Source: Gammaproteobacteria bacterium
GTDB lineage: Bacteria; Pseudomonadota; Gammaproteobacteria; JAPPPA01
Assembly (NCBI GenBank): GCA_030425645.1
Contig: JAUHZK010000008.1
Location: forward strand, 1 to 64,000
Length of the DNA: 64,000 nucleotides
Direction: 5' to 3'
Positions 52,890-58,744 of the stretch are shown here, in pieces. Each line of letters starts with the position of its first letter. The stretch's first letter is position 1. Made by a program: the position numbers and the translations under genes. Below the pieces are notes generated by a model, which was given only the letters and a program-made list of their open reading frames with translations, did no database searches and was not told where the DNA came from.

Positions 52890-52977
52890 AGGTATCAATG
52901 TGTAAATGCAATAGGATATAAAGAAAGGCTGTGCCTTTAGACGCGGCATGATAGCACGCAGAAACGGTAAATTTACT

Positions 52978-53994
52978 ATGCCCAGCAACGACATTACTGC
53001 TATCAGCAGCCACACTAGCGAGCCTTGGCAGCAGTCGCTGCAAGACGCCATTAAAGATCCGGCCGAGTTGCTGCAGCTACTTGGCCTGCCCTCCACTTTA
53101 CTGCCAGCGGCCAAGCTGGCGGCCAAGCAGTTCCCACTTAGGGTGCCGCGCGGCTTTGTAAACCGCATGCGCGTCGGCGATGTAGACGATCCGTTACTAA
53201 AGCAGGTGCTGCCGCTTGGTGCCGAACTGATTGCTGAGGATGGCTATAGCCATGACCCGGTCGGCGACTCCCTCGCCAAAGCAGAGGCGGGAGTCATTCA
53301 CAAATACCACCAGCGCGCCTTACTTATTAGCACTGGCGCCTGCGCCATTCATTGTCGCTACTGCTTTCGCCGCCACTTTCCCTATGCAGAGGAAATGGCC
53401 GCCAAGAACCGCTGGCAGCATAGTCTGGAGTGGTTAGCAGAGAACCCGAAAATCAATGAAGTGATTCTCAGTGGCGGCGACCCCTTATCCCTGAGCGACG
53501 CCAAGCTGAAACCACTAATGAACGGCCTTGCGCAAAACCCTAATGTGGACACCTTACGTATCCATAGCCGCCAACCTATCGTACTACCTGAACGCATTAC
53601 CGAAGAGTTGATCCAGACCCTAAAACTGGCAAACAAGAAAATTGTCTTGGTTATTCATGCCAACCACGCCAACGAAATTGACCCTAGCGTGAGCAAGGCA
53701 CTGCTGACATTGCATGCGGCGGACATCCAGCTACTAAACCAAGCGGTTTTATTACGCGGCATTAACGACAGCGCAGAAGCACAAGCTGAGCTGAGCCGAA
53801 AACTGTTCGCAAATCATGTTTTGCCGTACTATCTGCATTTACTGGATGCGGTACAAGGCGCTGCGCACTTTGATATGGAGACTAGCCAAGCGCTGGCTAT
53901 CCATAAATCACTGAGTGCGCTGCTGCCGGGTTATTTAGTACCGCGATTAGTAAAAGAAATAGCCGGCGAGCCAAATAAAACGCTCGTCAGCTAA
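52978..53994 (+). CDS. epmB: EF-P beta-lysylation protein EpmB (lysine 2,3-aminomutase-like)
   Basis: 338 residues from the ATG at 52978; a further in-frame start lies 10 codons upstream. Radical SAM protein that makes (R)-beta-lysine for EpmA. The cluster motif is '[17 protein letters not shown]' (CxxxCxxC), followed by '[14 protein letters not shown]' and '[15 protein letters not shown]'. The PLP-binding lysine is expected further on. Divergent from efp with 88 bases between, which carry the small palindrome AAAGGCTGTGCCTTT (52924-52938). Confidence 0.95.
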
Positions 53995-54092: not shown

Positions 54093-55838
54093 ATGAAAGA
54101 AGTCAAAGACATCAGGCTCGTCGTTGTCGACGAAAAGCCAGAATCGGCTGAATCGATTTCACGCATTATGCGTGATGCCGGTCAACTGATGCCTGTGCAA
54201 TGGGCCAACAGCCCGCTACGTCTTGAGAACTTAATCAACGACGCCAGCACACCCGTAGTACTCGCCAATGCCTCATTGCCTTGGTATCCCTTTGATCAGA
54301 TCTGCCAAACCACCCAGCAATATGGCCTCGTCACAATTGCGTTAGGGGCGACTCCGGATACCAGTTTAGAGTTACGCGTGTTACGCCAAGGCGCGATCTG
54401 CTTAGCTAACCCAGAACACCCGGCACTACTGGAACAGCAAGTGCAGCTAGCACTCCAGCTCTGCGGTCTGAAAAACGAAATTCAGCGCAAGCAGTCGCAA
54501 CTCGACTCGCTAGATACCCGCTGCGATGCACTACTAGATACCGCTGCCGAACCCATTGCCTATACCAGCGAAGGCGTTATCACTAGTGCTAACAGCGCTT
54601 TCGCCACACTTGTTGGTGCCGACAATAGCGCCGACCTCAGCGGCCGCTTAATTAGTGACTTTATCGCCGCCGAGTCGCTTTACGACTTCAGCCGAGAGTT
54701 GCGTCGTTTAATGCGTGACGAAAGCAACCACGTGCAGATGGATAACGCCCTTATCGCCAGCCTGCAGGGCCATAACTCCAGTGCCATTGTGTTTATGCAT
54801 AACGTCGAAATTAACGGTGAGCACAGCATCCAAATTTTGATTCGCGAACAGGCAGCTGGCCAACAAGCCGCCAGCAGCACAGCAGCGACAAGCACTCGCC
54901 AGCAGCGCGGCTTTGAAAAAGCACTGCCTAACAAGATAAAAACTACTCCTGACGCGCTGCCAAGTTTGGCTATTGTGCATGACCAAAGCAGCTATGAGCC
55001 GGCTGAGCCAGTACCGCTTAAAGCACCTCTGGACCGAAACAATATCAACGGCATGATGGCGCGGCTCAGCGCCTGGGAAGCACAAACAGGAGGCCCTGCC
55101 AGCAAGAGCATTAGCGACTCCGCTAACGACGCTTATTCTGTAGAAGCCTTGCCGCAACTATTACAAAAGCAATCCGCGCGAGTAGAAGCACAACCACTGT
55201 TGTCGCTACATTCAGACAACAACATGGTACTGACGCGAATCAAAAGTGACGATCGCCTAATGCCGATCTCACAAATGCTGGTACAACCGCTAGACGGCGA
55301 AAGTGCAACCTGGCTGTTAGAACAAGCCAACCAGCTAGCTCTACCCGAACAGTGGGTTCTAGCACCAGTAAGCCAGGGGCTAATCAGCGCCAGTTGTATT
55401 GAGCAGCTACAAACCCTAAACGCCAGCAAACAGCTCGTCTTAGGCCTATCGGAAGAAGCCCTCCATAACGACTTCCACGGCAGCAACCAATTTTTGTTAC
55501 AACTGCAAAAAATCGGTATGAAGGCGGCACTCTGGTCAAACAGCCCTGCCAGCGTATTAGCAGATTGCCTAAGTGACCTTGCCAACAGCGTTCGTAGCGG
55601 CATTCACTGCGTCGTCCTCGACGCTAGTCATTCGCCAACGCTCAGCCAAGAGCAAGCTGATTCCAGCTGGTCGCGACTACTATCGCTTTGCCATAGCAAC
55701 AATATTGCCTTGATTGTGCAACGGCCTGAAGACGAAGCCAGCTTACAAACTTGGTGGCGCTTAGGTATCGGCTGGTGCATGACCGAAAGCCAAGTAACGA
55801 TCAACAAATTCCAACAAACTGGCACGACCGCCAAATAA
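54093..55838 (+). CDS. FimX-like protein: receiver-like, PAS and degenerate EAL, no GGDEF
   Basis: 581 residues. Residues 5-125 look like the receiver-like domain of Pseudomonas FimX ('IRLVVVDEKPESAESISRIMRDAG'), without the usual phosphoacceptor pattern. Residues 140-255 are a PAS domain ('RCDALLDTAAEPIAYTSEGVITSANSAFATLVG'). A low-complexity linker (about 260-365) replaces GGDEF. Residues 370-570 follow the EAL scaffold ('AQPLLSLHSDNNMVLTRI', 'LMPISQMLVQPLDGESATWLLEQAN') but lack the EAL motif and most metal ligands. I infer a non-catalytic c-di-GMP receptor or scaffold for type IV pilus or surface behaviour, as FimX is. It lies downstream of epmB with a terminator after it. Confidence 0.8.
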   Translation: MKEVKDIRLVVVDEKPESAESISRIMRDAGQLMPVQWANSPLRLENLINDASTPVVLANASLPWYPFDQICQTTQQYGLVTIALGATPDTSLELRVLRQGAICLANPEHPALLEQQVQLALQLCGLKNEIQRKQSQLDSLDTRCDALLDTAAEPIAYTSEGVITSANSAFATLVGADNSADLSGRLISDFIAAESLYDFSRELRRLMRDESNHVQMDNALIASLQGHNSSAIVFMHNVEINGEHSIQILIREQAAGQQAASSTAATSTRQQRGFEKALPNKIKTTPDALPSLAIVHDQSSYEPAEPVPLKAPLDRNNINGMMARLSAWEAQTGGPASKSISDSANDAYSVEALPQLLQKQSARVEAQPLLSLHSDNNMVLTRIKSDDRLMPISQMLVQPLDGESATWLLEQANQLALPEQWVLAPVSQGLISASCIEQLQTLNASKQLVLGLSEEALHNDFHGSNQFLLQLQKIGMKAALWSNSPASVLADCLSDLANSVRSGIHCVVLDASHSPTLSQEQADSSWSRLLSLCHSNNIALIVQRPEDEASLQTWWRLGIGWCMTESQVTINKFQQTGTTAK

Positions 55839-55840
55839 TA

Positions 55841-55867
55841 AAAAAGCCCCTTAACGGGGCTTTTTTA
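55841..55867. terminator. Terminator between the FimX-like gene and htpX
   Basis: AAAAAAGCCCC-TTAA-CGGGGCTTTTTT, symmetrical, serving both convergent genes. Confidence 0.93.
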
Positions 55868-55873
55868 TGTCGC

Positions 55874-56785
55874 TTAACGCCTTACCGCGCCTTCATTTTC
55901 CAGCGCCGCAATACGCTCTTCTAATGGCGGGTGCGACATAAACAAACGCCCCACGCCACCGCGGCCAAAAATACCGAAAGCATGTAGCTCTTCTGGCAAT
56001 TGCACCGGATTATTGGCTGCTTGCTGAGTTTGTAAGCGCCGCAATGCATTGGCCATTTTTTGACGGCCCGCCAACTGCGCGCCGCCGGCATCGGCCCTGA
56101 ACTCGCGATAACGCGAGAACGCCATCACGATCATATGCGCCAAAAAGCCCAACAACACCTCAGCCAAAATCGTCATCGCAAAATAACCAATGCCGTGGCC
56201 ACCGCCCTGTCCGTCCCGACGGAAAAGCATATTGTCTAAAGCGCGGCCAATGACCCGCGAGAAGATAATCACGAAAGTATTCAACACGCCCTGAATCAGA
56301 CTCAAGGTAATCATGTCACCATTCGCCACATGGCTTACCTCATGCGCTAACACGGCTTCTACCTCGTCCTGGTTCATATTCCGCAGCAGCCCCGTACTCA
56401 CCGCCACTAGGGCGTTATTACGGCTAGCGCCGGTTGCAAAGGCATTCATCTCAGGGCCGTCATAAATAGCTACATCAGGCATGCCAATACCGGCGTCTTC
56501 AGCCTGCATCTTCACCGTCTGCAACAACCAACGTTCAACGTTGTTACTCGGGTTTTCAATTACCTTGGCGCGGGTACTCATTAGCGCCATCTTTTTCGAT
56601 AGCAGCAAACTAATGATCGAACCGCCCATACCAAAGGCCAAAGCAATCGGCAGAATACGCACAATGTCAGCATTTACGCCGTTGGCGTACATAATTTGAT
56701 CTAGGCCCAACACCTGCCAAACCACGGTAAGCACGATCAGAATGGCGAAGTTGGTCAGGCCGAAAAGAATCATCCGAGTAAACAC
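55874..56785 (-). CDS. htpX: Membrane zinc protease HtpX
   Basis: 303 residues, M48 family. Four hydrophobic segments. The catalytic HEVSH is in 'VLAHEVSHVANGDM', and the third zinc ligand Glu lies in 'YREFRADAGGAQLAG'. 'DVAIYDGPEMNAFATGASRNNALVAVSTGLL' precedes it as usual. It degrades damaged membrane proteins from the cytoplasmic face. Single gene; upstream lies the large repeat element. Confidence 0.97.
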   Translation of the reverse strand: MFTRMILFGLTNFAILIVLTVVWQVLGLDQIMYANGVNADIVRILPIALAFGMGGSIISLLLSKKMALMSTRAKVIENPSNNVERWLLQTVKMQAEDAGIGMPDVAIYDGPEMNAFATGASRNNALVAVSTGLLRNMNQDEVEAVLAHEVSHVANGDMITLSLIQGVLNTFVIIFSRVIGRALDNMLFRRDGQGGGHGIGYFAMTILAEVLLGFLAHMIVMAFSRYREFRADAGGAQLAGRQKMANALRRLQTQQAANNPVQLPEELHAFGIFGRGGVGRLFMSHPPLEERIAALENEGAVRR

Positions 56786-57547: not shown

Positions 57548-58744
57548 TTACTGAAGCGTAGTCTTAATCTCCGCTTCACCCTGAAGCGCCCTCGTCACCG
57601 GCGTTCTATCCGCAATCTCCAACACCTTCTGCTTCTGCGCCTCAGAAAGATCACCATCTAACTCAATAGTCCGCTCAATCTTGCTAGCACCATCATCAGT
57701 GCGCTCATGCTTAAGCTTCACGCGCACGGCCTCTAGCGGAATGTCTTTAAGGTTGGCATACATGCGAATAGTCATGCTGGTGCAGGAGCCTAATGAGGCC
57801 AACAGCATGTCGAATGGATTCGGGCCTAAATTAGCGCCACCCGCGTCAACTGGCTCGTCAGCGACCCAGTTATGGCCTTGAGTGATAACTTCGCGGGTAA
57901 AAGCTTTATTACGCTCGACAATAAGCACCTCACCAGCGGCGGCATCACTTTGATGACCACCGGCGGTAATCACTTCTGGCAGATAGCGCGTTACCCAGGC
58001 AACAATCGCGTCGGCCACATATTGGGCATCTTCACGTTTGGTGAGTAGATGGTCGGCTTTTTCTAGCGAGATAAAGCTTTTCGGGTGTTTGGCCGCGCCG
58101 TAAATAATGGCGGCCTGATTGATGGAAACGGTGTCGTCCATCGGCGAATGGAAAACCAGCAGCGCCTTACGCAGGCTGCCGATCATTTTGTCTTGTTCTT
58201 CATGCTGCGCTTCAATGTCGTCGATGAAGTGCTTTTTCACCACAAACGGGCGACCACCCAGCAAAACATCGGCTTGGCCTTCGGCGTTAATCTCGTCTTC
58301 GTGTTTTTCAAAGTGATGACGCACATGATCTGGTGTGCTCGGCGCAGCGATGGTAACCACGGCTTTCGCTTCTGGCACTTTATGCGCGGCCCACAACACG
58401 GCTGCGCCACCTAAGCTGTGCCCAATAATGATGCTGGGTGCTTCATATTGGTCACGCATAAAGTCAGCCGCTGAGGCTAAGTCTTCTACGTTGGTAGAAA
58501 AGTTGGTGTCTTCAAACGCGCCTTCGCTTTTGCCAATACCAGCAAAATCAAAACGCAGCGTGGCAATGCCTTTAGCGGCTAGCGTTTGGCAAATGCGACT
58601 GGCAGCGGGAATATCTTTAGAGCAGGTAAAACAGTGTGCAAACAAGGCATAAGCGCGGGGAGCCTCTACCGGCGCCTCTAAAACGCCCGACAACTTCACC
58701 CCCGCCTTATTAGTAAATTCGACCTTTTGGCGTTTTGCTGACAT
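57548..58744 (-). CDS. Alpha/beta hydrolase - OsmC fusion protein
   Basis: 398 residues. Residues 1-250 are an alpha/beta hydrolase: 'ALFAHCFTCSKD' oxyanion region, nucleophile 'IIGHSLGGAAVL', and 'HSPMDDTVSI' plus 'ADHLL' for the acid and base. Residues 262-398 are an OsmC/Ohr-like domain ('GPNPFDMLLASLGSCTSMTIRMYANLKDIPLEAVRVKLKHER'), with one peroxidatic-type cysteine in 'SLGSCTS'. This fusion is a known bacterial architecture, probably for peroxide or acyl-thiol stress. Cytoplasmic. It stands alone between the repeat element and parC. Confidence 0.93.
   Translation of the reverse strand: MSAKRQKVEFTNKAGVKLSGVLEAPVEAPRAYALFAHCFTCSKDIPAASRICQTLAAKGIATLRFDFAGIGKSEGAFEDTNFSTNVEDLASAADFMRDQYEAPSIIIGHSLGGAAVLWAAHKVPEAKAVVTIAAPSTPDHVRHHFEKHEDEINAEGQADVLLGGRPFVVKKHFIDDIEAQHEEQDKMIGSLRKALLVFHSPMDDTVSINQAAIIYGAAKHPKSFISLEKADHLLTKREDAQYVADAIVAWVTRYLPEVITAGGHQSDAAAGEVLIVERNKAFTREVITQGHNWVADEPVDAGGANLGPNPFDMLLASLGSCTSMTIRMYANLKDIPLEAVRVKLKHERTDDGASKIERTIELDGDLSEAQKQKVLEIADRTPVTRALQGEAEIKTTLQ

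Follow-up and report, generated by a model that had tools for sequence, protein, structure and literature searches.

The window, the 64,000-nucleotide stretch of gammaproteobacterial DNA analysed here, carries a fimX-type gene (54093..55838, + strand, ATG start) whose 581-aa product consists of a receiver (REC)-like domain, a PAS domain, a linker and a degenerate EAL domain, with no GGDEF domain in between. Judged from its sequence, the protein is the ortholog of FimX in a gammaproteobacterial order that is poorly sampled, and we lean slightly towards the view that it serves the pilus motor as a REC-PAS scaffold and receives little or no input from c-di-GMP. The sequence-only reading, which already described the protein as FimX-like, had offered two possibilities, a minimal c-di-GMP receptor or a scaffold that no longer binds the ligand.

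For the assignment to FimX we made separate profiles of the N-terminal, GGDEF and EAL parts from 97 full-length FimX proteins. The N-terminal profile matched the window protein with 134 bits and covered residues 3-250, whereas the best score among other EAL proteins of the same genome was 23 bits (nine of the ten other EAL proteins were scored; they derive from 11 loci, of which two pairs overlap). A class-wide search with the window protein returned matches in 129 of 369 genomes (E<=1e-6); outside the genus these were mostly confined to the part before about residue 260. The majority of the matched open frames were about 700 aa long. Short frames of G215, G354, G291 and G221 were left out as contig-edge cuts, G272 was left out as it contains a run of Ns, and the frame of G187 (L026) extends past its locus. 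For one of the class-wide matches, locus L013, the best PDB match was FimX (4j40), and a single match in each of G000 and G001 reached the L013 receiver part. When the window protein itself was used against PDB sequences, one weak match, to PAS, was obtained, and neither a scan of the genome contigs with this protein as the only query nor a tblastn search of plasmids yielded a relative.

Gene order points in the same direction. Upstream of fimX lies what we take from its translation to be an epmB-type gene (EF-P lysine 2,3-aminomutase; 52948..53994, + strand), and downstream, convergent with fimX, a presumed htpX-type protease gene (55874..56785, - strand), both of which were also matched near fimX in other genomes; genes that we read from their translations as efp- and epmA-type adjoin these neighbours. 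A terminator-like hairpin followed by a T run, read from the sequence, separates the fimX stop codon from htpX (55839..55868, + strand). Flanks of about 1.5 kb around fimX were inspected in 35 other genomes: EpmB, EF-P or HtpX was present there in 16 genomes, and EpmB and HtpX together in three of them (G366, G202 and G086), with contig ends cutting some of the loci; the order epmB-fimX-htpX is thus that of other gammaproteobacterial fimX genes, and the EF-P neighbourhood of fimX is therefore old. The sequence-only reading was right that EF-P genes are adjacent, but they are nothing special to this variant, as full-length fimX genes share the same surroundings. Together, the N-terminal profile score and the gene order identify the ORF as this genome's ortholog of FimX. 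Further downstream, a 398-aa ORF (57548-58744, - strand) resembles, by its translation, an alpha/beta hydrolase fused to an OsmC-like domain.

REC-like and PAS domains are common to the window protein and to the REC-PAS-GGDEF-EAL FimX proteins of P. aeruginosa and Xanthomonas, and their retention, as first read from the sequence, agrees with the FimX N-terminal profile, AlphaFold2 and Pfam. The REC-like domain (residues about 5-108; 54105..54416, + strand) gave no Pfam receiver match at E<=1 and was delimited by the FimX N-terminal profile and AlphaFold2, which predicted alternating strands and helices for the N-terminal part with block pLDDT values mostly between 80 and 94. It is followed by a long REC-PAS helix in the AlphaFold2 secondary structure (residues 110-150; 54420..54542, + strand) and by the PAS domain (residues about 151-256; 54543..54860, + strand), for which PF00989 scored 28 bits against a cut-off of 22.6 over residues 145-216. 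At the place of the GGDEF domain of full-length FimX there is a linker of about 85 residues (257-340; 54861..55112, + strand), predicted mostly with low confidence. The absence of a GGDEF domain was borne out by the profile made from the GGDEF part of FimX, which gave 0.4 bits, and by the lack of any Pfam GGDEF match at E<=1. The linker had also been described as rich in Ser and Ala; this enrichment is mild, as the two residues make up 28% of positions 257-345 and 21.5% of the whole protein.

The C-terminal part (residues 362-563; 55176..55781, + strand), defined by Pfam, the FimX-EAL profile, AlphaFold2 and structure alignment, is in our models a shrunken EAL barrel that has lost the metal-binding Glu and several ligand positions. 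Pfam EAL scored 18.3 bits, below the cut-off of 31.3, and the FimX-EAL profile gave 12 bits with filters off, compared with 79-184 bits for the nine other EAL proteins of the genome that were scored. An EAL fold without the EAL motif is shared with FimX, and aligning the window protein with FimX EAL domains located the remains of the EVLxR motif at M378-V-L-T-R382 (55224..55238, + strand), where EVL has become MVL and Met occupies the position of the metal-binding Glu (E475 in P. aeruginosa FimX). The Q of the QP motif is retained at residue 367. A decayed EAL domain without its catalytic motif, as proposed earlier, is what these data describe, and both the sub-threshold score and the Met at the motif Glu set the protein apart from active EAL phosphodiesterases. 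The predicted fold is nevertheless that of an EAL domain and not an unrelated one, although this evidence is not blind, since FimX EAL domains were among the aligned sequences that AlphaFold2 received as input. Modelled alone, the C-terminal part reached a mean pLDDT of 75 and a pTM of 0.73; in the model of the whole protein (pTM 0.39) its blocks had pLDDT values of 31-81. Both models contain the helices and strands expected for an EAL barrel, all eight barrel strands among them. The model of the C-terminal domain matched the EAL domains of LapD and FimX with Z 15.5-17, and the whole-protein model superposed on a FimX EAL structure with a TM-score of 0.64 by target length. The fold is therefore much like that of LapD, a receptor with a catalytically dead EAL domain (Z 17). 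LapD has a membrane part; the window protein has no LapD-like membrane part and carries a FimX-type N-terminus instead.

Could such a barrel still act as a receptor? A minimal FimX-like receptor, in which the shrunken barrel binds c-di-GMP without a GGDEF domain and does the work of FimX with fewer parts, would be consistent with the eight predicted strands and with equivalents of Q461, L477, R479 and E654 being kept (P. aeruginosa FimX numbering, which depends on the alignment). Of the five c-di-GMP contacts named in the portion of PMC3527489 available to us, which also lists the metal residues of the P. aeruginosa EAL domain, L477, R479 and E654 are kept, and D507 and Y673 are changed. Three of five named ligand positions thus speak against a scaffold blind to c-di-GMP. 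Also in favour of a receptor, excerpts of PMC8389850 and PMC11656802 describe the GGDEF domain of FimX as non-catalytic, and G086 (L035) has a FimX that lacks GGDEF yet scores 218 bits with the EAL profile. Against a receptor stand the replacement of D507, which is Asp in 97/97 full-length FimX proteins, by Glu; the changes of K616, Lys or Arg in 97/97, to Val, of F652 to Arg and of Y673 to Glu (all again alignment-dependent); the missing QGxxLQ-type C-terminal end; and a defective GGDEF-motif mutant of P. aeruginosa FimX described in part of PMC11656802. We consider the receptor explanation unlikely, and a related genome also counts against it.

This genome, a fragmented MAG ('Gammaproteobacteria bacterium isolate SB9156_S5_bin_6', 330 contigs) that is congeneric with the window genome, was the one other genome of the order that we compared. 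Its ortholog is 474 aa long, 50% identical and flanked by the same genes, and the presence of such an ortholog at the same place implies that the architecture of the window ORF is not due to chance. In comparison with the window protein it lacks, in frame, residues 373-486 (114 residues; 55209..55550, + strand), a deletion known from a single MAG contig. According to the predicted strands, the missing segment corresponds to beta2-beta5 of the barrel, including the EVL/R and D507 positions, so that the strands bearing L477, R479 and D507 are gone and half of the barrel has been lost. It is because of this loss that, between the two possibilities put forward in the sequence-only reading, we favour a scaffold; the receptor keeps some standing through L477, R479 and E654.

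The fragmented state of the sister assembly might raise the suspicion that the architecture is an assembly or frameshift artefact, but the open frame, the same neighbours and the absence of GGDEF in both genomes make this extremely improbable. A further explanation, that the gene is functionless and decaying towards loss, would fit the weak EAL score and the way in which two relatives have lost parts step by step. It is, however, at odds with frames that are intact in the two species, whose proteins are 50% identical, and with pN/pS values between window and sister of 0.32 for REC, 0.41 for PAS, 0.47 for the C-terminal remnant and 0.67 for the linker, the segment least conserved with the sister ortholog (35% identity); with pS at 0.62-0.95, near saturation, these values are rough. 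PilB and PilZ are also kept in both genomes. On these rough estimates fimX looks constrained in both and not like a pseudogene, and we regard decay as quite improbable. The C-terminal remnant is 51% identical between the sisters even though one barrel is broken, and it contains a conserved stretch, SGIHxVV...LQTWWRLGxGWC. Through this stretch and the PAS domain the protein might have been recruited to another partner or signal, its role in the pilus being gone; given that no new partner was seen and that the gene order is that of other fimX genes, we judge recruitment very unlikely.

The type IV pilus partners of FimX are encoded in the window and sister genomes. PilB scored above its family cut-off in both (848.3 bits in G000, 846.5 bits in G001), and in G001 a pilin-type ORF adjoins pilB. 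For the PilZ domain there is a single match per genome, the frame being 116-123 aa long and adjoining ORFs we read as holB- and tmk-type. A crude pattern for the c-di-GMP-binding MshEN motif was found in none of the four ATPases of loci L040-L043. Mutation of I10, F49 or L51 of X. citri PilZ breaks FimX binding, as stated in the accessible text of PMC8389850. In both the window and sister genomes positions 10/49/51 are V/L/S, while W69, which binds PilB, and the terminal THTM of PilZ are retained. Of 53 near-invariant PilZ columns, a number that includes one gap column, 13 were changed in both genomes, and 11 of these 13 lie at positions 10-16 and 37-51, a pattern seen post hoc and not predicted.

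These changes at FimX-facing positions hint that PilZ may have changed together with FimX, but the signal is not clean. F49 and L51 were kept in 23/23 PilZ proteins from genomes with full-length FimX, and likewise in 80/80 further PilZ proteins, many of them from genomes without a listed full-length FimX; at position 10, V occurs commonly enough, and 72 of the further 80 have I there. We therefore compared 69 chosen genomes with divergent PilZ, two of which (G209 and G304) were set aside; the PilZ match of G209 (L282) contains an in-frame stop codon. F49 was kept in 23/24 genomes with FimX and in 23/43 without (p 2.5e-4, with kinship ignored and three positions viewed), where 'without FimX' means no class-wide match and a second search whose best hit did not exceed a strength of about 1e-72, as sorted by hand, so that a divergent FimX may hide among them. 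At 50-66% identity the counts were 19/19 and 14/21 (p 0.009, kinship again ignored). L51, on the other hand, had no link with the presence of FimX (15/24 versus 27/43, p 1), and position 10 was frequently outside the fetched stretch. A dependence of F49/L51 on FimX is thus weakly supported by these comparisons.

How a FimX without c-di-GMP input would work has to be weighed against what is described for the known proteins, on which reports from Pseudomonas and Xanthomonas conflict as to what c-di-GMP and PilZ do (PMC11656802, in part). FimX of P. aeruginosa requires its EAL domain and the binding of c-di-GMP both to function and to interact with PilB, as set out in the consulted portion of PMC5595344, and by these rules the window protein should not work, which argues against a scaffold. 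Passages of PMC11656802 further state that calorimetry showed no binding of PilZ to the P. aeruginosa FimX EAL domain and that the ATPase activity of the X. citri complex was unchanged by added c-di-GMP; in X. citri the FimX EAL domain binds PilZ (PMC8389850, excerpt). If the window protein is a REC-PAS scaffold, dimerisation via REC would still occur, FimX would help to position PilB at the pole or to activate it there, and the C-terminal remnant would contribute no more than structure or docking. The control that c-di-GMP exerts on pilus extension through FimX would then be weakened or lost, with the sister lineage further along, as barrel strands 2-5 are gone.

A broader model can be offered tentatively, with rather less than even confidence: in this order FimX may be uncoupled from c-di-GMP while the motor and PilZ are kept, the sisters recording a stepwise dismantling of the EAL domain and PilZ having changed at its FimX-facing positions. 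FimX would then scaffold PilB at the pole through REC-PAS, with control by the second messenger being optional, and loss of GGDEF would come first, in more than one lineage. The data suggest that a regulator that normally depends on a signal may be becoming uncoupled from it. Natural FimX proteins without GGDEF, here losing EAL too, separate the role of REC-PAS from c-di-GMP binding without engineered truncations, and listings from an open-licence library yielded no description of a FimX without GGDEF.

The window is not alone in its loss of the GGDEF domain. In the family f75, which contains Thiothrix, GGDEF was missing in all 12 fetched loci that were scored (<=4.4 bits), and the 504-aa query from G075 had a match in 57 of the 60 genomes of its order. 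The f75 proteins share with the window protein the succession of REC, PAS, linker and degenerate EAL, but their EAL scores are mostly higher (22-65 bits for eight loci, 8.5-34 for four) and the D507 position is Asp in 8/8 aligned, where the window protein has Glu. An assignment of f75 to Legionella was ruled out by two of its members, G386 and G389, whose plasmid contigs match Thiothrix subterranea plasmids at 100%; the failure to find a FimX homolog in L. pneumophila, as given in the available part of PMC7811196, is therefore not contradicted. In G086 (L035), which shares with the window both the GGDEF loss and the order efp-epmB-fimX-htpX, the EAL domain is well kept, with 122 bits for Pfam EAL, in contrast to its degenerate state in the window. 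As the FimX of G311 (L340), a member of that family, is full-length, the loss in G086 is a separate one, and the two loci form a clean pair in which GGDEF was lost within one family and EAL was kept.

The trait recurs in f75 and G086; at least two independent losses of GGDEF are supported, the one in G086 by the full-length FimX of G311, and we do not claim three. In AU tests, on a tree that flags long branches, a single loss for all short proteins was weakly rejected (p 0.033), while one shared loss for the window and f75 was not rejected (p 0.41) and a grouping of the window with L035 gave p 0.058. The first five aligned PilZ proteins of f75 (G075 and relatives; L052, L061-L072) differ at the FimX-facing positions and have no THTM end. 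Unlike the window locus, L052 has neither EpmB nor HtpX in its available flanks, and its fimX-type gene is immediately preceded by a 458-aa ORF.
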